Shown here: positions 18,757 to 27,736 of the stretch, piece by piece
Numbering within the stretch: position 1 is the first letter of the stretch
Layout of the letters: each line of letters begins with the position of its first letter
Virus record (IMG/VR): IMGVR_UViG_3300045952_000362
Span: 1-64,000 of that record
DNA from: a virus
Length of the DNA: 64,000 bases
Reading direction: 5' to 3' (one strand)
Notes under the pieces: model-generated
The model's database searches: none
Told to the model about the DNA's origin: nothing
Seen by the model: the letters and a program-made list of their open reading frames with translations, nothing else
Program-made: the position numbers and the translations under genes

Positions 18757-18803
18757 TCGTCCGTCGGCCCACAACGTAAGTGTTACGAAGGAGCGAACGA
18801 ATC

Positions 18804-20054
18804 ATGTCCGAGACTGACAAGAACAAGAAGTCATGGACGCCGGACCAGCTGGTCGCAAAGATCAAGGAAGTCTGTGGCGTCGTCGTGGCGGAGCGACTGG
18901 AAACTCTCCAGAAGACCGTCACGGATCACGGCCAGTGGATCAGCGGGGCCAGCAGCCATGGCAACCCGCGCATCTCGCTGGCCACCACGAACGATATGAA
19001 GGGACTCCTCACGGGCGGTATCGTGACGTCTCTTGCGCTCGCGCGTGGCAATGCCAAGGATGCGCTTGACAACGAGAAGAAGCGCTACAACACGGACAAG
19101 TCCGAGCACCAGGCTTCGATCATCAAGGCACTCGAATCGAGCACTGGCACTGCCGGCGGTTTCCTCATCCCCGAGGAATACTCGTCGGACTTCATCGACC
19201 TGCTGACGCCTCGTGCGGTCGTGCGTTCGTTCGGCACCACGGTGCTCCCGATGTCCTCGGGCAGCATGATTGTGCCGAAGCTGACCGCCGCGAGCTCCGC
19301 GTACTACATCGGAGAGTCGCAGCAGCCGACGAAGAGCCAGCCGTCGTTCGGCATCAAGCGGTTGAACGCCCGCAAGCTCGGGGTGCTCGTGCCGCTGTCG
19401 AACGACCTGATCCGTCGGGGCGGCCCGCGTGTCGCCACGGTGGTCCGCAACGACGCACTGCGCTCAGCGTCGCTGAAGGAGGACGTCTCGTTCATCCGCG
19501 CACAGGGTACCGACTACACCCCGAAGGGTCTGCGGTATCAGGCGGCTGCGGCGAACATCCTCACCAGCACGGGCGGTGGCACGTACGATCTGGACTCCGT
19601 CACCACGGACCTCGGTCGGATGGTGCTGGCGCTCGAGGAAGCGAACGTCGCGTTCTCGAACCCCGGCTGGATCTTCTCACCGCGCATCGCGATGTTCCTC
19701 TTCACGCTGCGTGACGGGCTCGGCAACTACGTCTTCCGGGCGGAGATGTCCACCGGCAAGTTCTGGGGCTACCCGTTCAAGAAGACCACGCAGATCCCGA
19801 CGAACCTCGGGGACGGCAGCGACAGCGAGATCTACCTCGCGGACTTCGACGATGTGATCATCGGCGACACGCTGCAGATTCAGGTGGCCGTCTCGGAAGA
19901 GGCGACCTACGTGAACGAGAACAACGAGACCGTCTCCGCGTTCGCGCTCGACCAGACGGTCATGCGTCTCCTGATGGAACACGACATCGTGCTGCGGCAC
20001 GACGAGTCGGTCGCCGTCATGACCGCGCCGTGGGCACCGGGAGGCGCCAGCTAG
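18804..20054 (+). CDS. Major capsid protein, HK97 fold
   Basis: 416 residues from the ATG at 18804, with CGAAGGAGCGAACGAATC upstream. The N-terminal 100 residues form the helical delta-domain removed by the protease. Mature capsid sequence probably starts near SSTGTAGGFLIPEEYSSDFI. HK97-type landmarks are GGFLIPEEYSSDFIDLLTPRAVVR, the strand run RKLGVLVPLSNDLIRRGG, RAQGTDYTPKGLRYQ and GYPFKKTTQIPTNLGDGSDS. Highly biased codon choice with few rare-looking codons, as expected for the most expressed gene. Confidence 0.92.
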   Translation: MSETDKNKKSWTPDQLVAKIKEVCGVVVAERLETLQKTVTDHGQWISGASSHGNPRISLATTNDMKGLLTGGIVTSLALARGNAKDALDNEKKRYNTDKSEHQASIIKALESSTGTAGGFLIPEEYSSDFIDLLTPRAVVRSFGTTVLPMSSGSMIVPKLTAASSAYYIGESQQPTKSQPSFGIKRLNARKLGVLVPLSNDLIRRGGPRVATVVRNDALRSASLKEDVSFIRAQGTDYTPKGLRYQAAAANILTSTGGGTYDLDSVTTDLGRMVLALEEANVAFSNPGWIFSPRIAMFLFTLRDGLGNYVFRAEMSTGKFWGYPFKKTTQIPTNLGDGSDSEIYLADFDDVIIGDTLQIQVAVSEEATYVNENNETVSAFALDQTVMRLLMEHDIVLRHDESVAVMTAPWAPGGAS

Positions 20055-20109: not shown

Positions 20110-20574
20110 ATGCTCGGAACGAACATTGGAGCCTACGTCACCAGTCGCTTCGCTCTCCAGCGAACGGCACTGGGCGCGGGCGCAGGTGGCAACATTGGCG
20201 CCACCGACGGTACGGCTTTCCAGCGTACCGCGGTGCGTCCGTTGCACATCAGCACGAAGGTCGTCGTGGGGTACAAGACCACGCTGGCCTCGGGCAATAC
20301 GCTCACGCTGACGGCGCAGCTGAAGGATTCACCGGACGGGATCACGTACTCGAACTTCGGAGCTTCGGCTTCGTCGGTCGTGACGGGTCTCGGCGGTGGC
20401 CCGCAGCAGGTCGGTACGCTGGAGCTCGACGTCAATCTGATGGGGGCGGACAAGTACATTCGTCCGACCGTCACGCCCGTGCTGTCGGCATCGGGTGTGG
20501 ACACGGCCGAGATCTTCGGCGTGTACATCCTGGGTGGCGGCGAAACGGTTCCGCCGACGGAGTCCGCGCAGTAG
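20110..20574 (+). CDS. Probable capsid accessory or decoration protein
   Basis: 154 residues, preceded by GGAAGGGAGTAGAGAACC. Gly/Thr/Ser-rich and all-beta (ISTKVVVGYKTTLASGNTLT, LTAQLKDSPDGITYSNFG). It follows the major capsid gene directly with a strong ribosome site. The composition, size and position fit a head decoration protein, but I do not recognise a family. Confidence 0.6.
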   Translation: MLGTNIGAYVTSRFALQRTALGAGAGGNIGATDGTAFQRTAVRPLHISTKVVVGYKTTLASGNTLTLTAQLKDSPDGITYSNFGASASSVVTGLGGGPQQVGTLELDVNLMGADKYIRPTVTPVLSASGVDTAEIFGVYILGGGETVPPTESAQ

Positions 20575-20710: not shown

Positions 20711-21802
20711 GTGATAAAAGTATCTGATGTGACGATGTTCGGAAATGAACTCCGCTACGTAACGGAGGCCGTCCGCGAAGGATCGGTCTCATGGCACGGG
20801 CGGTTCGTACGTGAATTTGAAACGGCGTTCGCGCAGTACGTCGGGAGCAAGCATGCGCTGGCGTGCTGCAATGGAACTGCGGCGTTGCACCTCGCGCTCG
20901 AAGCGGCCGGTATCGGCCCCGGCGACGAGGTCATCGTACCGGTCTTGACCTACGTGGCTACGGCTAATGCGGTGCGCCACGCCGGGGCGCGTCCAGTGTT
21001 CGTCGATGTGGACCCCACCACGTGGTGCATGAATGTGGACGAGGCCGACCGGGCGATCACGTCGCGCACCAAAGCGATCCTGCCGGTGCAACTCTACGGC
21101 CACTGGCCCGACATGGGGCTGCTGCAACACATCTGTAAGCGTCGCCAGTTGATGCTGATCGAAGATGCGGCCGAAGCACTAACCGCGCATTGGAAGAGCC
21201 AACATGCCGGCACATTCGGTATCGCCGGGGCCTTCAGCTTCTTCGCTAACAAAACAATCACGTGTGGCGAAGGTGGCATGGTCGTGACGAACAGCGACGG
21301 CGTGGCCGATACGGTGCGTCGCCTCCGGGCCCACGGCATGGAGCAGTCCATCCACCAGTACTATCACGATCGGCTCGGCTACAACTATCGTATGACGAAC
21401 CTGCAAGCGGCCGTTGGGCTCGCGCAGCTGGAGACGTTGCCGGTGTTGCAGTCGCGTCGGGTCGAAGTGGTGCACTACTATCGAACGCACCTGAGCGAAT
21501 TCGAGCAGCAGTGGTCGTCGGTCACGGCGATCCCGAGCAATTGGATGTTTACAGTATTGGTACCGAAAGGGGTTTCAGTTACGGATGTGCGGGCGCGGAT
21601 GGCAGAGGATGGCGTGGAGACCCGTCCTTCGTTCTTGCCATTGAGCACGTTGCCCATGTACTCCGATTCGCTACGGTCGTTCCCGGTAGCGTCGGATATC
21701 TCGAACAGGGGACTCTGCCTGCCAACCCACGCAGGTTTGACCGTCGCGATGCTGGCGCACGTCGAGACGTCGTTTCGCAAGGCGCTACAGGAGGCCGCAT
21801 GA
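20711..21802 (+). CDS. DegT/DnrJ/EryC1/StrS-family sugar aminotransferase
   Basis: 363 residues from the GTG at 20711, with GGAGGAGCAA just upstream. A PLP enzyme that aminates keto-sugars on nucleotide carriers. The catalytic lysine is Lys181 in AFSFFANKTITCGEGGMVVT. Asp152 in LIEDAAEAL contacts the PLP ring nitrogen. The substrate loop GSVSWHGRFVREFETAFAQY and CNGTAALHLAL match the family, as does YNYRMTNLQAAVGLAQL. Length is normal. It opens a seven-gene cassette with overlapping starts. The keto-sugar must come from the host or another gene, since no dehydratase is present here. Confidence 0.92.
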   Translation: MIKVSDVTMFGNELRYVTEAVREGSVSWHGRFVREFETAFAQYVGSKHALACCNGTAALHLALEAAGIGPGDEVIVPVLTYVATANAVRHAGARPVFVDVDPTTWCMNVDEADRAITSRTKAILPVQLYGHWPDMGLLQHICKRRQLMLIEDAAEALTAHWKSQHAGTFGIAGAFSFFANKTITCGEGGMVVTNSDGVADTVRRLRAHGMEQSIHQYYHDRLGYNYRMTNLQAAVGLAQLETLPVLQSRRVEVVHYYRTHLSEFEQQWSSVTAIPSNWMFTVLVPKGVSVTDVRARMAEDGVETRPSFLPLSTLPMYSDSLRSFPVASDISNRGLCLPTHAGLTVAMLAHVETSFRKALQEAA

Positions 21803-22407
21803 AAGTACTGCTACTGACCAAGACGTCAGAGTGGTGCCGTCGCGCGCACGCATTGATGCGCGATCGGTTCCCCGACCTGACGATTTTCGCCGGAGAGGCC
21901 GGCACGTTGCTCCCACCAGAGGTTTCGAAGTGGCGAGGCGATTTGATTCTGTCGTTCGTGTGTCCGTGGATTCTACCGGCAACGGTACTGGCGCACGCGG
22001 GACTGGCGATCAACTTCCACCCGGCTCCACCGGAGCATCCGGGCTTCGCCCCGTACTCGTGGGCGTTGTATGCGGGCGACGTCAACTACGGCATCACTGT
22101 GCATCATATGGTGCCGCGGGTGGACACGGGTCTCATCATTCGAGTCGAACGGTTTCCGATCGACCCGTCACAGTCTGTCTACCAATTGCAGCAGCTCACA
22201 ATGCATCACCTGCTGACGGCGTTGGACGAGATGACCATCGCCGACTTCTACGTCTCGTCGGGCGATGAGTGGACCCGGACACCGCGCACGCGTCAGGATT
22301 TTGAAGTGCTGCGACATGTTCGCCATGAGATGGGCGAACGAGAAATCAATCGACGCATCCGTGCGTGTACGTATCCCGGTCGCCCCGGCGTGGAGGTGAT
22401 CTCATGA
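21799..22407 (+). CDS. Formyltransferase, probable sugar N-formyltransferase
   Basis: 202 residues from the ATG at 21799. Formyl_trans_N fold: the catalytic triad is Asn72-x-His74 in INFHPAPPEHPGF and Asp109 in MVPRVDTGLIIR, as in methionyl-tRNA formyltransferase and in sugar N-formyltransferases. It lacks the C-terminal tRNA-binding domain, so a tRNA substrate is unlikely. Located four bases inside the end of the aminotransferase gene, it most likely formylates the amino group that enzyme installs, using N10-formyltetrahydrofolate (inference from context). Confidence 0.88.
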   Translation: MKVLLLTKTSEWCRRAHALMRDRFPDLTIFAGEAGTLLPPEVSKWRGDLILSFVCPWILPATVLAHAGLAINFHPAPPEHPGFAPYSWALYAGDVNYGITVHHMVPRVDTGLIIRVERFPIDPSQSVYQLQQLTMHHLLTALDEMTIADFYVSSGDEWTRTPRTRQDFEVLRHVRHEMGEREINRRIRACTYPGRPGVEVIS

Positions 22408-22925
22408 AGCACATCCTCGAACTCTGGGAGCACTTCAAAGAGACGGGCATCATCGGGGCGCCGACGACATGGTACGAGCCGATCGTCATGACCCGGGAGG
22501 AGAATCTTCGTCGCGGCCACAACACGCGTGTGGATGGATTCGTGAAACTCGAATGTGGCAACGGTCTGTGGATCGGTGAGAACGTTCACATCGCCTCGTT
22601 CTGCCACATCGGTGTCGGAGGCGGCCACGTCATCATTGAAGACGGTGCGACATGCTCCAGCAGTGTGAAGCTGATCAGTGGTACGAGTGTGCACGAACTC
22701 GGACGTAGCTGCTCGGCCATCGCGCCGGACTTCAAAGCGGAGCGATCGTTCGTTCATTTGAAGAAAAACGCGTGCGTGTTCGCCGGAGTTATCGTCCTCC
22801 CAGGAATTACGATCGGCGAGAACGCCGTCGTGGGGGCCGGAGCGGTGGTCACGCAGGATGTACCGGACGGTGCGATCTATGCGGGCGTGCCGGCCCGTGT
22901 GCTCGCACGAAGGGAGGCTCTGTGA
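22404..22925 (+). CDS. Left-handed beta-helix (hexapeptide) acyltransferase
   Basis: 173 residues. Imperfect hexapeptide repeats run from about residue 55: GLWIGENVHIASFCHIGVGG, GHVIIEDGATCSSSVKL, then ACVFAGVIVLPGITIGENAV and VGAGAVVTQDVPDGAIYAGV, the typical C-terminal signature of O- and N-acetyltransferases in sugar pathways. It probably works as a trimer with acetyl- or acyl-CoA. It starts inside the previous stop (ATGA) and ends in GTGA coupling with the next gene. Confidence 0.85.
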   Translation: MKHILELWEHFKETGIIGAPTTWYEPIVMTREENLRRGHNTRVDGFVKLECGNGLWIGENVHIASFCHIGVGGGHVIIEDGATCSSSVKLISGTSVHELGRSCSAIAPDFKAERSFVHLKKNACVFAGVIVLPGITIGENAVVGAGAVVTQDVPDGAIYAGVPARVLARREAL

Positions 22926-23608
22926 AGAACCTTCTCCTTTCGTACTGGCGTAATGACGCCGACCGTGACATCTGGACGCGGATGAATCACTTGCTGCTCA
23001 AGAAGGATGTGGAGCAGTTCATGTGGGTCGTCGGGGATTCGTCGGATGATACCGCAGCCATCTTGCACGAGGCCGCCGACATCGACTCTCGTGTGCTCGT
23101 ACTTCACGCGGACAGCGGAATCAAAGGCGAGGACATCGATACGCGTCGTCGCCGGATCTCGCACACAGAAACGTTGGCGTACGGAACGATCGCCCACATG
23201 CCGGACATCGACTACGTGATCCAACACGAGTCGGATCTTCGGTCGCCGGTCGACGTCGTCGCTCGGTTGTTGGCGTTGGCCGATGAGCGCACCGTCGTAG
23301 CGGGTTGGCCGATCTTGCATCTGCCGAGTGGCCCGGTGTTCTACGACATCTGGGCCTACCGTGGATTGGACGGCGATCCGTTCACAGGGTCAGCACCGTA
23401 CCACGTTTCATATCGCGCTGACGAACCGTTTGAAGTCGGTGCGGTGGGCAGCGTGTGGCTCGGCCATCGCAAGCTGTGGGCCCACCGAGGCATCGAACGG
23501 GAGTGCTGTCTCGAGTTGTGCCGGCAGTGGCGTGCCGAGGGTGTGCGCATCCTCGTGGATCCGCGGATTGAAATCGAACAGCCGCGAGAACTGTGGGTGG
23601 TGTCATGA
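22922..23608 (+). CDS. GT-A-type glycosyltransferase, paralogue 1
   Basis: 228 residues from the GTG at 22922. Rossmann-like start (MKNLLLSYWRNDADRDIWTR), FMWVVGDSSDDTAAIL, and a metal-site-type acidic motif IDYVIQHESDLRSP. A later FYDIWAYRG...EVGAVGSVWL block is shared with the next gene (YDIWGFRS...EVGSVGSCLV), so the pair is a tandem duplication. The family resembles Anp1/Mnn9-like GT-A enzymes. Donor and acceptor are unknown. Confidence 0.7.
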   Translation: MKNLLLSYWRNDADRDIWTRMNHLLLKKDVEQFMWVVGDSSDDTAAILHEAADIDSRVLVLHADSGIKGEDIDTRRRRISHTETLAYGTIAHMPDIDYVIQHESDLRSPVDVVARLLALADERTVVAGWPILHLPSGPVFYDIWAYRGLDGDPFTGSAPYHVSYRADEPFEVGAVGSVWLGHRKLWAHRGIERECCLELCRQWRAEGVRILVDPRIEIEQPRELWVVS

Positions 23609-24309
23609 ACTTCGCGCTGATGTCTGCGTTCCGAAACAGCAGCGGGTTCCACACCAACCGTTATTTCCGGCAGGTGTCGCGACTGGCGAATGCGTTGGCG
23701 GCCCGTGGCGATGCGTTGCATCTGCGATTGGTCTGGGGCGATTCGGTGGACGGCACCGGCCAGGAGCTCGAGAAGTACGCGACGGCGTTCGTCGGTACAA
23801 ACGAGGTGCGGTCCTACAGTATCGTGGAGCGGTCACACGGCGGTCCCGTCTTCGGCAGTACGGAAGAGGCGGCCCGCATGAAGGCGTTGTCGTGGGTGGC
23901 GAACGGGGCGTTCGAATCCATCGGTGACGACATCGATGTCGCGATGTGGGTGGAGTCCGACCTGCTGTGGGACCCGGCCACGATCGTTCGTCTCATCCAT
24001 CGGCTGAGCGAAACCGATGTCGTGGCTCCGCTGATCTTCGCCGGGGAAGCTTTCTACGACATCTGGGGATTCCGTTCGAAGGATGGCACGCGGTTCGGTC
24101 CATTCTATCCGTACCACGAGTCGATGAAGTTCAACGGCGACGTGACCGAGGTTGGGTCGGTTGGTAGTTGTTTGGTGATGCGTGGAGAGGTAGCGCGGCA
24201 GTGTCGGATTCGTAACGACTACTGTCTCGTCGGGTTCTGTGAAGACGTTCGTGCCCACGGCTACGTGATCTCGGTCGACGGGCAGGAAAGGATTCAGCAC
24301 CCCGCATGA
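23605..24309 (+). CDS. GT-A-type glycosyltransferase, paralogue 2
   Basis: 234 residues. Parallels the preceding protein: LHLRLVWGDSVDGTGQELEK, then VAMWVESDLLWDPATIVRLI as the acidic motif, AFYDIWGFRSKDGTRFGPFY and EVGSVGSCLVMRGEVARQC. Divergence is high outside these blocks, so the duplication is old and the two may attach different sugars. Start and stop overlap neighbours by four bases. Confidence 0.7.
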   Translation: MNFALMSAFRNSSGFHTNRYFRQVSRLANALAARGDALHLRLVWGDSVDGTGQELEKYATAFVGTNEVRSYSIVERSHGGPVFGSTEEAARMKALSWVANGAFESIGDDIDVAMWVESDLLWDPATIVRLIHRLSETDVVAPLIFAGEAFYDIWGFRSKDGTRFGPFYPYHESMKFNGDVTEVGSVGSCLVMRGEVARQCRIRNDYCLVGFCEDVRAHGYVISVDGQERIQHPA

Positions 24310-25196
24310 ATACCAAACTTCGCGTCTGCGCTCGCGCCCTCCCAGAGCATCTGTCGTTGGGCATTCATCGTGTCGCCAATGCGCTCATCCGGTACGCACC
24401 GGATTGGGTGAAACTCGTGGACGACCCGGACACGGCCGATCTCCGCATCGGTCACTGTATCGGAATCCAGGATATGGAAGCGTGGTGCGCCAAAGGCCCC
24501 TACGCTCTCGTGCAATACTGCCTGTTGACGGGCGGGGGCTCTCGAGAGGAATGGGCGTCGCTGTGGAAGGGCGCACGGGCCGTCTGGAGCTACTACGATC
24601 TCAACGAGTTCCTGCGCCCACTGCGTGAGCAGTCGACGTGTGGATGCGGCGATGGGATCAACTTCTATCACGCACCGCTTGGTGTTGACACGTCGGTCTT
24701 CCGGCCGTCGATGCCGGCACGGAAACCGTTCCTGATTGGTACGTCCGGTTTCATCGCCGCGACGGAATCAGTTGAGGAATGTCACGAGGTCGTGAAGCGT
24801 CTCGGTCGCCGGCAGTTCCATCTCGGACCGACGGAGATGGAACTGGGTGACGATGTAACCTACATGCTGCGCGTGCCCGACGCGGCCGTCGCGGACATGT
24901 GGAGCCAATGCACCTTCGTCGCCGGGCTGCGGCGCATCGAAGGCTTCGAGCTCCCCGTGCTGGAAGGCCTGGCATGCGGAGCCCGCCCGATCGTGTTTGA
25001 TGCACCGCACTACTCCCAGTGGTTTGGGGAGCACGTGGAATACGTCCCCGAGGTGGCTCCGGCCGAACTCGTGGATGCGCTGATGGAGATAATGTCGAAG
25101 CCGGTACGACCCGTAACCCCGGCTGAGCGATCCCTCGTCGCTGCGACATTCGACTGGAAGAAACTGGTTGCGGGATTTTGGGAGGCCGTGCGATGA
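24306..25196 (+). CDS. GT-B-type glycosyltransferase (GT4-like), short
   Basis: 296 residues. The C-terminal domain has the GT4 signature: EGFELPVLEGLACGARPIVF (Glu-x7-Glu motif) and YSQWFGEHVEYV. The N-terminal acceptor domain is shorter than usual. A CGCGDG motif and YHAPLGVDTSVFRP mark the domain linker. Substrate is unknown. Confidence 0.8.
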   Translation: MNTKLRVCARALPEHLSLGIHRVANALIRYAPDWVKLVDDPDTADLRIGHCIGIQDMEAWCAKGPYALVQYCLLTGGGSREEWASLWKGARAVWSYYDLNEFLRPLREQSTCGCGDGINFYHAPLGVDTSVFRPSMPARKPFLIGTSGFIAATESVEECHEVVKRLGRRQFHLGPTEMELGDDVTYMLRVPDAAVADMWSQCTFVAGLRRIEGFELPVLEGLACGARPIVFDAPHYSQWFGEHVEYVPEVAPAELVDALMEIMSKPVRPVTPAERSLVAATFDWKKLVAGFWEAVR

Positions 25197-26407
25197 AGGT
25201 TTTGTGGATTGGAGACGCCGTTGTGCAATCGGGCTTTGCCCGCGTGACGCACAACATCGTGGGACGGTTGAAGACGCAGCACAAGTGTGACGTGCGGGTA
25301 CTCGGGGTGAACTACAATGGAGATCCCCACCCGTATGACTATCCGATCTATCCGGCGCTGATCGGCGGAGACCCGTGGGGGATCCAACGAGTGCCGGGGG
25401 TCGTGCGCGACTTTCAGCCGGATGTGATCTGCATCAACAACGATCCGTGGAACGTGGCGCAGTACCTGTCGGTGATCCGCACCGCGGTGCCGACGACTGC
25501 GTACATGCCTGTCGATGCGCCGAATCAAATGCATGCCGGCGAGCTCAGCGTCATGCCGCGAGCGATCGCGTACACCAACTTCGGAAAGAAGGAGTTGTTG
25601 CTCGGCGGCTACAACGGGCGCGTCGATGTGATCCCGCACGGAGTGGACACGGAGATCTACAAGCCGGTCGAAGATCGCGTCACGGCCCGCAAGTGGCTCG
25701 AGTTCCAACCGAAGCTGACGGACGAGCAGATCGGCAACCTGTTCATCGTGTCGAACGTGAACCGGAACCAGCCGCGCAAGCGCTTGGATCTCACCATCCA
25801 GTACTTCACGCAGTTCTGGTTGAACATCGGACAGCCGTCGCACGTGCGCCTGCATCTGCATTGCGGCGAGCACGACATGGGCTGGAACGTGTCACAGCTC
25901 GCGAAGTACTTCGGGATCAACAAGCAGCTGATCATCACGACTCCGAAGATGTCGTTGCAAGCGTGCATCAAGGAGCACGAGCTTCGACTCGTGTACGGAA
26001 TGGCGGATGTCAATCTCAGCACCACGCTCGGCGAGGGCTGGGGCCTGACGACGCACGAGAGCATGGCGTGCGGAATCCCGCAGATCGTACCACGTTACTC
26101 GGCGCTCGGCGAATGGCCGGACGGGGCGGTGCGCTACGTGGAGTGCACGTCGTTCCAAGCCACGCACAACGCGGTCAACACCATCGGTGGAGTCGCCGAC
26201 ATGGCGCAGACCGTTGAGGCGCTGACCGATCTCTATCGCAATGCCGACCTGCGAACGAAGCTGGGGTCGGCCGCACTGGCTCGTGCGACGGAAGAGCGGT
26301 TCAAGTGGGACAAGATCGCCGCGCAGTTCTACGTCGCACTGGCGGAGACCTTCAACGAGCGACGCGCAGCACCAGTAGGGGTGGAGGCTCCCCGATCCAA
26401 TGGTTAG
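25193..26407 (+). CDS. GT-B-type glycosyltransferase (GT4 family)
   Basis: 404 residues from the ATG at 25193. Full-length GT4: MKVLWIGDAVVQSGFARVTH with the glycine-rich N-terminal loop, VDVIPHGVDTEIYKP, LFIVSNVNRNQPRKRLDLTI, VNLSTTLGEGWGLTTHESMA (Glu-x7-Glu region) and CGIPQIVPRYSALGEW. It closes the sugar cassette and overlaps the next gene by eight bases. Confidence 0.88.
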   Translation: MKVLWIGDAVVQSGFARVTHNIVGRLKTQHKCDVRVLGVNYNGDPHPYDYPIYPALIGGDPWGIQRVPGVVRDFQPDVICINNDPWNVAQYLSVIRTAVPTTAYMPVDAPNQMHAGELSVMPRAIAYTNFGKKELLLGGYNGRVDVIPHGVDTEIYKPVEDRVTARKWLEFQPKLTDEQIGNLFIVSNVNRNQPRKRLDLTIQYFTQFWLNIGQPSHVRLHLHCGEHDMGWNVSQLAKYFGINKQLIITTPKMSLQACIKEHELRLVYGMADVNLSTTLGEGWGLTTHESMACGIPQIVPRYSALGEWPDGAVRYVECTSFQATHNAVNTIGGVADMAQTVEALTDLYRNADLRTKLGSAALARATEERFKWDKIAAQFYVALAETFNERRAAPVGVEAPRSNG

Positions 26408-26645
26408 ATTCACACGACACTACGGCAAGTACAACAAGGACGAGACGGCGACCTTCTCGCCGGACCACGAAAAGTGGTTGATCAAACAGAAGTACGTCGT
26501 TGAAGTGGAGGCACCCGTGGCGAAGAGCACCAGCACCGATCCGAAGGGCGGCCCGCAACCGCCCGCAAACCAGCCAGGGACGAAGGATCCTGGCCAGCCG
26601 CAGACCCGGCAGACCACCGTCGGACCGCAGCGAAGCGGTCGTTAA
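26400..26645 (+). CDS. Small structural-module protein
   Basis: 81 residues (MVRFTRHYGKYNKDETATFS). The first 40 residues resemble a short domain often found between capsid and connector genes (RFxRHYxxYNxGExAxF). The rest is a low-complexity Pro/Gln/Thr tail. Its TAA stop is part of the GTTAATGG motif that opens GC-rich island 2. Confidence 0.6.
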   Translation: MVRFTRHYGKYNKDETATFSPDHEKWLIKQKYVVEVEAPVAKSTSTDPKGGPQPPANQPGTKDPGQPQTRQTTVGPQRSGR

Positions 26646-26839: not shown

Positions 26840-27736
26840 ATGAACATTCAGGTTGTTGAGGGGCCGCGCACGACGTGGTTCACCACACTGCGGCGAGTGA
26901 AAGGCGAACTGGGCATCACCAGCGATGCGCAGGACGAACGTTTGTCCGCGCTGATCGGCGAGGTGTCCGACGACATCGCCGAGTTCACCATGCGTCCGTG
27001 GGCACGACAGTCCGTGACCGAACGCTTGGTCGGCTACGGCACAACGCAAAGCACGCTCAGCATCACACCGATCGCGGAGCGGCCGTCCGAAGTACGGTAC
27101 TACGACACGGCGGTATCGGGCTACTCGGTCGCCGATGCCGAAGCCGGATTCATTATTCGTCCCGATCGCTTCGCCGAGACGCGTCCGTACACCACGTGGG
27201 TCAACACGGACCCCGACGTCGCGTCACAGGGCGAGCGTGCGTGGGCGTTCGATTACATCGGCGGCTATTTAATGCCGGGCGACGACATGCTCCCCAGCGG
27301 TATCATGTCCGCGCTCGCGGTGGACAGCTCGTTCAATCTGACGGGTGTCGATACGATGGAGACACGATTTCCATTGCTCGTCTCTGGCGAGTACGTGGTC
27401 GTGGCCGGATTCTCGATCTCCGGGAACAATGGACGGTTCCGTGTCCTGAGTCGCACGCCATCGAAGCTCGTGGTCGCCGGCACGCTCGTGGATGAAATGC
27501 CGAGCGGTGTCCTGTCGCTGCGATGCCGCACGTTGCCGCGCAATCTCGAGGGCTACGCGATCGAAGAGCTCCGTGCGCGATGGGATCGCGCCACACGGGA
27601 TCCGTCGTTGACGTCTGAGCGCATCGGCGACTGGGGTGCGTCGTACGACAACCCGGCGAACAAGGATGCCGAGGGATTGGGCGGCCTGTCGCCACGTGTG
27701 GCACGCGGACTCGAACGTTACGTGAGGAATGAATAA
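26840..27736 (+). CDS. Head-tail connector (gp6-like adaptor)
   Basis: 298 residues from the ATG at 26840. The N-terminal region (TTLRRVKGELGITSDAQDER, LSALIGEVSDDIAEFT) has the paired helices of gp6/gp15-type head-tail adaptors, which bind under the portal. It is longer than a minimal adaptor because of a beta-rich insertion (about 65-245), and ends in YAIEELRARWDRATRDPSL. An ORF extension upstream through the island is rejected. Confidence 0.75.
   Translation: MNIQVVEGPRTTWFTTLRRVKGELGITSDAQDERLSALIGEVSDDIAEFTMRPWARQSVTERLVGYGTTQSTLSITPIAERPSEVRYYDTAVSGYSVADAEAGFIIRPDRFAETRPYTTWVNTDPDVASQGERAWAFDYIGGYLMPGDDMLPSGIMSALAVDSSFNLTGVDTMETRFPLLVSGEYVVVAGFSISGNNGRFRVLSRTPSKLVVAGTLVDEMPSGVLSLRCRTLPRNLEGYAIEELRARWDRATRDPSLTSERIGDWGASYDNPANKDAEGLGGLSPRVARGLERYVRNE

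Follow-up and report, generated by a model that had tools for sequence, protein, structure and literature searches.

The window analysed here, a 64,000-nucleotide stretch (positions 1 to 64,000) of the IMG/VR virus record IMGVR_UViG_3300045952_000362, carries seven genes arranged head to tail at 20711-26407, downstream of the major capsid protein and an accessory gene and upstream of the connector genes. They encode, in order, a DegT aminotransferase, a formyltransferase, a hexapeptide acyltransferase, two GT-A and two GT4 glycosyltransferases. The cassette and its neighbours are as follows.

18780..20054, + strand: major capsid protein, HK97 type (phrog_10, 2.8e-45; phrog_617, 2.6e-42)
20110..20574, + strand: 154-aa capsid accessory gene, function unassigned (weak phrog_5707 match, 8e-4; synteny with contig L065)
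20711..21802, + strand: DegT-family sugar aminotransferase, GDP-perosamine-synthase-like, catalytic Lys181 (PF01041, 1e-115, 387 bits)
21799..22407, + strand: short (202 aa) sugar N-formyltransferase, Asn72, His74 and Asp109 (PF00551, 7e-16, 59 bits)
22404..22925, + strand: left-handed beta-helix (LbH) acyltransferase, N- or O-acetyltransferase (Hexapep, 5.5e-10, 39 bits)
22922..23608, + strand: GT-A glycosyltransferase 1, extra copy (paralogue of GT-A 2; relatives at 38-46% identity)
23605..24309, + strand: GT-A glycosyltransferase 2, core member (model pLDDT 96.5; closest folds COLGALT1, LH3 and Mnn9)
24306..25196, + strand: GT4-type glycosyltransferase a, core member (PF00534, 5.6e-6, 26.4 bits, at the Pfam cut-off)
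25193..26407, + strand: GT4-type glycosyltransferase b, core member and hallmark (phrog_2170, 9.6e-35; Pfam just over cut-off)
26400..26645, + strand: 81-aa gene with a Ser/Thr/Pro/Gln-rich tail, overlapping GT4b (phrog_38773/2616, about 1e-3; synteny with contig L069)
26840..27736, + strand: head-tail adaptor, first connector gene after the cassette (phrog_442, 7e-9)

All seven ORFs that the first-pass annotation had read as a sugar cassette are present at these coordinates, each junction overlapping by 4 bases. Their placement between the capsid accessory gene and the first connector gene also stood, with the addition that the 81-aa gene intervenes downstream. The DegT gene starts with GTG at 20711, preceded by GGAGGAGCAA. 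The longest open frame (426) was longer than all those of 200 shuffled replicas (maximum 403), and homology, synteny and base composition point the same way, so the frames are not due to chance. Two more IMG/VR contigs hold identical DNA. The GC and GC3 of the cassette are similar to those of the adjoining structural genes, and on that ground a recent acquisition was rejected. The accessory gene has a homologue at the equivalent place in L065, and L069 has a homologue of the 81-aa gene; when near relatives of the capsid and DegT proteins were sought, the scans gave back the same contig alone.

The enzyme families claimed for the cassette were borne out by Pfam matches for most genes and by paralogy and a fold model for the GT-A pair, and the residues Lys181 and Asn72/His74/Asp109 were confirmed. 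The DegT protein has a full-length fold with the catalytic lysine, and its best solved relative is perosamine synthetase (3bn1; 301 bits, 46% identity over 347 residues), against 236 bits for the second-best. At the position of Lys181, PerA has Lys and entry 3dr4 has Ala. Curated equivalog models scored 324 for LegC (cut-off 420) and 256 for PseC (cut-off 423), and membership of both was rejected; the equivalog matches included no PerA model, and the rejection covers LegC and PseC only.

The Asn-His-Asp triad of the formyltransferase was invariant in 24 aligned sequences. Its PF00551 (Formyl_trans_N) match spans profile positions 75-169 only, and its N-terminal part is shorter than that of Formyl_trans_N; the same holds in its relatives, and the model is still confident (pLDDT 96.3). 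Structure prediction, which had been proposed as a check, yielded confident models with the expected folds for both this enzyme and the second GT-A. The closest folds to the formyltransferase were Rv3404c, WbkC and VioF, and sugar N-formyltransferases, not PurN or Fmt, made up the first 29 matches (query TM-score 0.65-0.79), with 4-N sugar formyltransferases the nearest. Its best profile match was the GDP-perosamine N-formyltransferase WbkC (1e-16).

Taken with the nearness of the DegT protein to GDP-perosamine synthase, the triad and the 4-N-formyltransferase-like fold favour a 4-amino-4,6-dideoxyhexose, most likely perosamine, as the predicted product from a host NDP-4-keto sugar. The GDP-perosamine call is mostly DegT-based, since the formyltransferase profile parts WbkC (65 bits) from ArnA (61 bits) only slightly. 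Of the two positions first proposed for the amino group, DegT similarity and the formyltransferase fold make C4 most likely and speak against C3. A search of the whole record found neither a dehydratase nor a nucleotidyltransferase, as had been claimed. The proposal that an amino-sugar is made from a host keto-sugar is supported, with the enzyme activity itself predicted.

The beta-helix acyltransferase is WbbJ/WcaF/NeuD-like, with every score under cut-off. GT-A 1 had no family match in the Pfam search, and GT-A 2 matched CAP59_mtransfer alone (29.5 bits, cut-off 28.8). On the modelled structure the GT-A assignment is right for both, because the two genes are paralogous and the confident model of the second has the GT-A fold. 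This predicted fold resembles the protein glycosyltransferases COLGALT1 and LH3, a likeness of common fold that is no proof of a protein acceptor. Relatives of GT4a occur on about 19 viral contigs. GT4b has homologues in the isolated phages Mae-JY09, S-CBS4, TJE1 and phiPsal1, and its only solved relative is chlorovirus B736L, which prefers GDP-mannose for binding (PMC4691112).

Scanning the collection with the GT-A family returned 40 viral contigs. In 33 of these the cassette adjoins head, neck or tail genes (on both sides in 14); in the other seven no virion gene was identified close to the GT-A gene. A syntenic cassette, DegT-acyltransferase-GT-A-GT4-GT4, is conserved between capsid/adaptor and neck/tail genes, and its recognition as such is new here. 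The major capsid proteins of the phages that bear it belong to at least three unrelated families: PF05065 (the window phage and L065), DUF6260/phrog_771 (L047), and phrog_267/3437 or Phage_capsid_4 (L048, L005). In L011, genes for a formyltransferase and a DegT protein follow an unrelated capsid gene, phrog_1357, at a distance of a few kb. Among isolates, GT4b homologues occupy the same slot in phiPsal1 (MCP-GT4-MTase-GT2-neck) and Mae-JY09 (MCP-hyp-GT4-hyp-adaptor), and the GT4 homologue of S-EIVl lies outside any virion block. The location is a recurrent slot in unrelated phages and no quirk of a single genome.

Gene content differs among relatives: the formyltransferase, the second GT-A (the extra GT-A 1 copy is common to L033, L036, L004, L005 and L038) and a methyltransferase (L033, L036, L048) come and go. 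This variability would fit decaying passengers that have no function for the phage. Such a reading is very improbable, given that the frames are all intact, the catalytic residues invariant, the base composition that of adjoining genes and the core order retained across unrelated phages. The closest relative, L065, is without the formyltransferase, which is an add-on; the conserved core has the acyltransferase only. The proposed N-formylation is supported by triad and fold but refined to a step peculiar to this phage. In FastTree phylogenies GT4b largely tracked structural lineage and DegT mixed lineages, which suggests from tree topology that the sugar-making gene has been exchanged between lineages.

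We consider it probable that the seven genes form a late-expressed virion glycosylation cassette with a Corndog-like arrangement plus its own amino-sugar synthesis. Recurrence at the virion genes of unrelated phages suggests, on genomic grounds, that particles are sugar-coated by the phage itself. The DegT enzyme would aminate a host NDP-4-keto-6-deoxyhexose, most likely GDP-4-keto-6-deoxy-D-mannose to give GDP-perosamine, and the 4-amino group would be capped by the formyltransferase or alternatively by the beta-helix acyltransferase. Working in the cytoplasm, the four soluble glycosyltransferases would then add sugars directly to a virion protein, either ahead of head and tail assembly or while it proceeds, and the purpose may be particle shielding or adsorption tuning. 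Substrate, step order, acceptor and purpose are all inferred. As in mycobacteriophages Che8, Corndog and Myrna, the sugars would most likely be attached to the major capsid protein or to the tail tube, and the window's major capsid protein is the most likely candidate acceptor upstream of the cassette. The C-termini of the capsid and tail-tube proteins, inspected for an acceptor clue, carry no Ser/Thr-rich tail; the sole such tail is that of the 81-aa gene at 26400, too thin a basis for an acceptor guess.

Placement in a virion operon could alternatively serve late expression of something else. On one such account, the target in late infection is the host surface: the cassette would alter O-antigen, capsule or teichoic acid, for instance to keep new virions off debris or to exclude other phages, and the structural-operon site reflects timing only. 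DegT, formyltransferase and LbH enzymes are families typically seen in O-antigen clusters; in bacteria, relatives of the formyltransferase stand alongside NeuB, Polysacc_synt_2 and UDP-sugar dehydrogenase genes in clusters for surface sugars; and the LbH protein is nearest to O-antigen acetyltransferases. Nevertheless, none of the seven cassette proteins has a membrane segment (19-residue hydrophobicity window, no segment >1.82), and their family calls include no flippase, polymerase or lipid-carrier transferase. A search of the record found no tyrosine integrase, which makes long-term lysogenic conversion unlikely, and a surface trait is not expected to recur at the head-tail boundary of unrelated phages. 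We regard host-surface remodelling as unlikely; recurrent placement by virion genes and soluble enzymes favour the virion acceptor that the first-pass annotation had put forward, the acceptor itself being a prediction.

Glycosyltransferase sets by which phages decorate DNA are known, as cited in PMC12619734, and the transferases here might likewise hypermodify phage DNA ahead of packaging. This is highly unlikely, as the record contains no homologue of thymidylate synthase (Thymidylat_synt search, with a valid control) or hydroxymethylase and the cassette is part of the late operon, a long way from the replication genes, which occupy 43.8-60.3 kb on the opposite strand; a Tet_JBP search of the record gave zero matches, as did its control. 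Equally hard to credit is action on host small molecules or proteins, such as inactivation of a defence signal or antibiotic with formyl or acyl sugars as a by-product: beta-helix acyltransferases do include drug acetyltransferases, but those scores were all far under cut-off, and amino-sugar synthesis with four transferases is out of proportion to such a task.

The virion glycosylation reading has precedents. Virion glycans are reported for Che8, Corndog and Myrna (PMC12363180), and in mycobacteriophages the capsid and the tail tube are reported to carry glycans (PMC12619734, PMC12363180). Within the head-gene block of Corndog, gp35-38 stand between portal and protease (PMC4351075). Corndog, Che8 (gp108-110) and Myrna have glycosyltransferase genes, as the window phage does, together with O-methyltransferase genes; a methyltransferase is also carried by some relatives of the window cassette (L033, L036, L048). 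The window phage additionally would make and acylate its own amino-sugar. Che8 gp108 and gp110 had no detectable match to the window transferases and gp109 a marginal one (E 3e-4 within a set of 17 sequences; hhalign probability 21%), which amounts to no clear relation; the precedent is thus one of arrangement, not descent.

Virus-encoded amino-sugar pathways are found in giant viruses, including mimivirus, whose R141-L136-L142 viosamine pathway makes an N-acetylated 4-amino-4,6-dideoxy sugar for the particle with a PLP aminotransferase (PMC4691112), and chloroviruses with capsid glycans, the source of B736L. Giant viruses encode a dehydratase too, whereas none was found in the window phage; the comparison of sequence kinship covered B736L and the fold search. 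The bacterial O-antigen pathway to perosamine and N-formylperosamine (PerA, WbkC, PerB) is similar in that DegT is nearest PerA, the formyltransferase is nearest WbkC by profile and an acyltransferase is present, but no dehydratase was found in the record, none of the seven cassette genes is an export gene by family, and the formyltransferase is shorter (202 vs about 260 aa). phiPsal1, Mae-JY09, S-CBS4 and TJE1 have homologous GT4b genes, scoring 195-303 bits against the cassette profile, in the neighbourhood of head and neck genes, but as single GT4 genes without amino-sugar genes. We know of no functional study of these GT4 genes in virion blocks.

To our knowledge, glycosylation of phage particles has so far been shown in a few mycobacteriophages only. 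Tentatively, an island of aminotransferase, acyltransferase, GT-A and two GT4 genes may have spread among unrelated tailed phages to the capsid-to-neck boundary, and many environmental phage particles may carry an N-acylated 4-amino-4,6-dideoxyhexose, formylated in this phage, that soluble transferases have linked directly to a capsid or tail protein. The question is testable at once in cultured phages with the hallmark GT4 gene in the equivalent slot (phiPsal1, Mae-JY09). If true, a cassette of this kind, conserved and fixed at that boundary in unrelated phages and supplying its own amino-sugar, would mean that sugar-coating is common in uncultured tailed phages, which would bear on phage survival, recognition and adsorption.

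The record holding the window is 64,627 bases long (61% GC). This phage has been sampled more than once, since two further IMG/VR contigs (3300049733_000523 and 3300045936_000325) contain the same DNA. The gene order around the cassette was as follows:

18780-20054: major capsid protein (MCP), upstream of the cassette
20110-20574: 154-aa accessory gene, between the MCP and the cassette
20711-26407 (+): cassette of DegT aminotransferase, formyltransferase, hexapeptide beta-helix acyltransferase (LbH), two GT-A and two GT4 glycosyltransferases (GT4a and GT4b)
26840-27736: head-tail adaptor, downstream of the cassette

The first-pass annotation had described a seven-gene run between a capsid accessory gene and a connector, and this was borne out by the flanking genes and the ORFs, whose stop and start codons share a 4-base overlap at each junction. 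Family scans confirmed DegT, the formyltransferase, the hexapeptide acyltransferase and both GT4 enzymes, and the residues named in DegT (Lys181) and the formyltransferase (Asn72, His74 and Asp109) were correct. The GT-A calls held although family models barely detect either enzyme: the two are paralogues, and a confident structure model of the second (pLDDT 96.5) has a GT-A fold. An 81-aa gene (26400-26645) with a Ser/Thr/Pro/Gln-rich tail overlaps the end of GT4b, is kept in the related contig L069, and possibly encodes a virion protein.

A scan of viral contigs with the GT-A alignment as query yielded 42 loci, and gene order was analyzed in 40 contigs. The core DegT-LbH-GTA-GT4a-GT4b, complete or interrupted by a contig end, occurred in about 20 of the 40, and in an automatic count 33 had head, neck or tail genes no more than about eight genes away from GT-A, 14 of them on both sides, while the remaining 7 had none on either side. 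The 40 contigs are not 40 independent cases, because all are related through the query; independent evidence for recurrence is the change of structural background. The closest relatives each match one side of the cassette:

L065: TerL-portal-MuF-protease-MCP-accessory-DegT-LbH-GTA (upstream side)
L069: GTA-GT4a-GT4b-81aa-connector-tail tube (downstream side)

Gene order suggests that the formyltransferase was added in the window phage, because LbH directly follows DegT in L065 with no formyltransferase; L069 starts within its GT-A gene and is uninformative on this point. Contig L064 carries a gene weakly resembling the formyltransferase. In a large second group with DUF6260/phrog_771 capsids, a decoration protein and adaptor precede the cassette, and neck, tail terminator, major tail protein and tape measure genes follow it. 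A third group (L048, L049, L051 and L005) has phrog_267/3437 or Phage_capsid_4 capsids, and L032 has a reduced set between portal and capsid genes. The cassette is split in L054 and L055, where GT4a and GT4b are separated by small genes, among them an N-acetylmuramidase (PF11860), that perhaps form a lysis module (L054:11250-14622).

Among isolated phages, GT4b homologues also lie in virion blocks: in phiPsal1 and Mae-JY09, in S-CBS4 on the portal side, and in TJE1 upstream of its terminase genes. The homologue in S-EIVl, by contrast, lies outside the virion block. A scan with the formyltransferase found L011. Behind its major head protein gene (phrog_1357) come, in order, genes for proteins of 172 aa and 1068 aa, a glycosyltransferase, a formyltransferase, a nucleotide-sugar epimerase, a methyltransferase-like protein and DegT. 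The 1068-aa protein (L011:6108-9314) is probably a multidomain glycosyltransferase. In podophage ct7QV12 (L012:5592-7998), the terminase large subunit gene is directly preceded and overlapped by genes for a tibC-like glycosyltransferase, a methyltransferase and a DegT protein.

Among solved enzymes, DegT scored highest against perosamine synthetase (301 bits, next 236), with 46% identity across 347 residues and a common motif, N-K-x-I-T-x-G-E-G-G; the lysine of the DegT motif aligns with Ala in entry 3dr4. The C3 enzymes, including QdtB and WbpE, reached 159–187 bits. The formyltransferase profile, built from five aligned sequences, matched WbkC (GDP-perosamine N-formyltransferase, 65 bits) ahead of ArnA (61 bits), and the predicted fold (pLDDT 96.3) was closest to Rv3404c, WbkC and VioF, all 4-N sugar formyltransferases. 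A 4- or 3-amino sugar had been proposed; these comparisons make C4, rather than C3, the most likely position of the amino group. The only solved relative of GT4b is chlorovirus B736L, for which GDP-mannose was the best-bound ligand (PMC4691112). The second GT-A fell narrowly above the Pfam CAP59 mannosyltransferase cut-off, and its fold neighbors include Mnn9, solved with GDP. Combined, the DegT, formyltransferase, GT4b and GT-A comparisons make GDP-linked 4-amino-4,6-dideoxymannose the favored predicted product, ahead of the alternative, viosamine linked to dTDP or UDP. Searches of the record turned up neither a dehydratase nor a sugar nucleotidyltransferase, in agreement with the first-pass annotation, so the keto-sugar must be host-supplied. 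The beta-helix protein may target the same amino group or be an O-acetyltransferase. In archaeal MAG contigs (L070:8866-15545, L071 and L075), a formyltransferase relative lies beside 5-formyl-THF cyclo-ligase, serine hydroxymethyltransferase and FolD, with DegT and a NeuB fused to a cytidylyltransferase in the same clusters, which would thus be sugar formylation clusters that supply their own one-carbon units.

The primary work on mycobacteriophage virion glycans is reportedly that of Freeman et al. 2023. Che8, Corndog and Myrna are reported to have glycans on their virions (PMC12363180, PMC12619734, PMC11256854), and in Corndog the genes for an O-methyltransferase and three transferases sit between those for the portal and the protease (PMC4351075). 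The window cassette is alike in arrangement, with sugar synthesis as an extra feature. By hydrophobicity, all seven proteins are soluble, and the modeled second GT-A has COLGALT1, LH3 and polypeptide GalNAc-transferases, all of them protein transferases, among its fold neighbors, a likeness that is no more than suggestive of a protein acceptor. Because of the Corndog-like arrangement, the solubility and these fold neighbors, we favor the cassette glycosylating a virion protein, the putative acceptor, in the cytoplasm, over its main rival, in which it remodels the host surface. DNA modification is unlikely, as family searches for Tet/JBP (which had no valid control) and thymidylate synthase gave no match.

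The nearest functional parallel to the product predicted from the cassette genes is mimivirus, which makes its own N-acylated 4-amino-4,6-dideoxy sugar (PMC4691112). Phage virion glycosylation as a kind is already known; what is new, judging by the literature searched, is a syntenic amino-sugar cassette that occupies a single slot across several unrelated structural backgrounds and that in this phage includes a formyltransferase.
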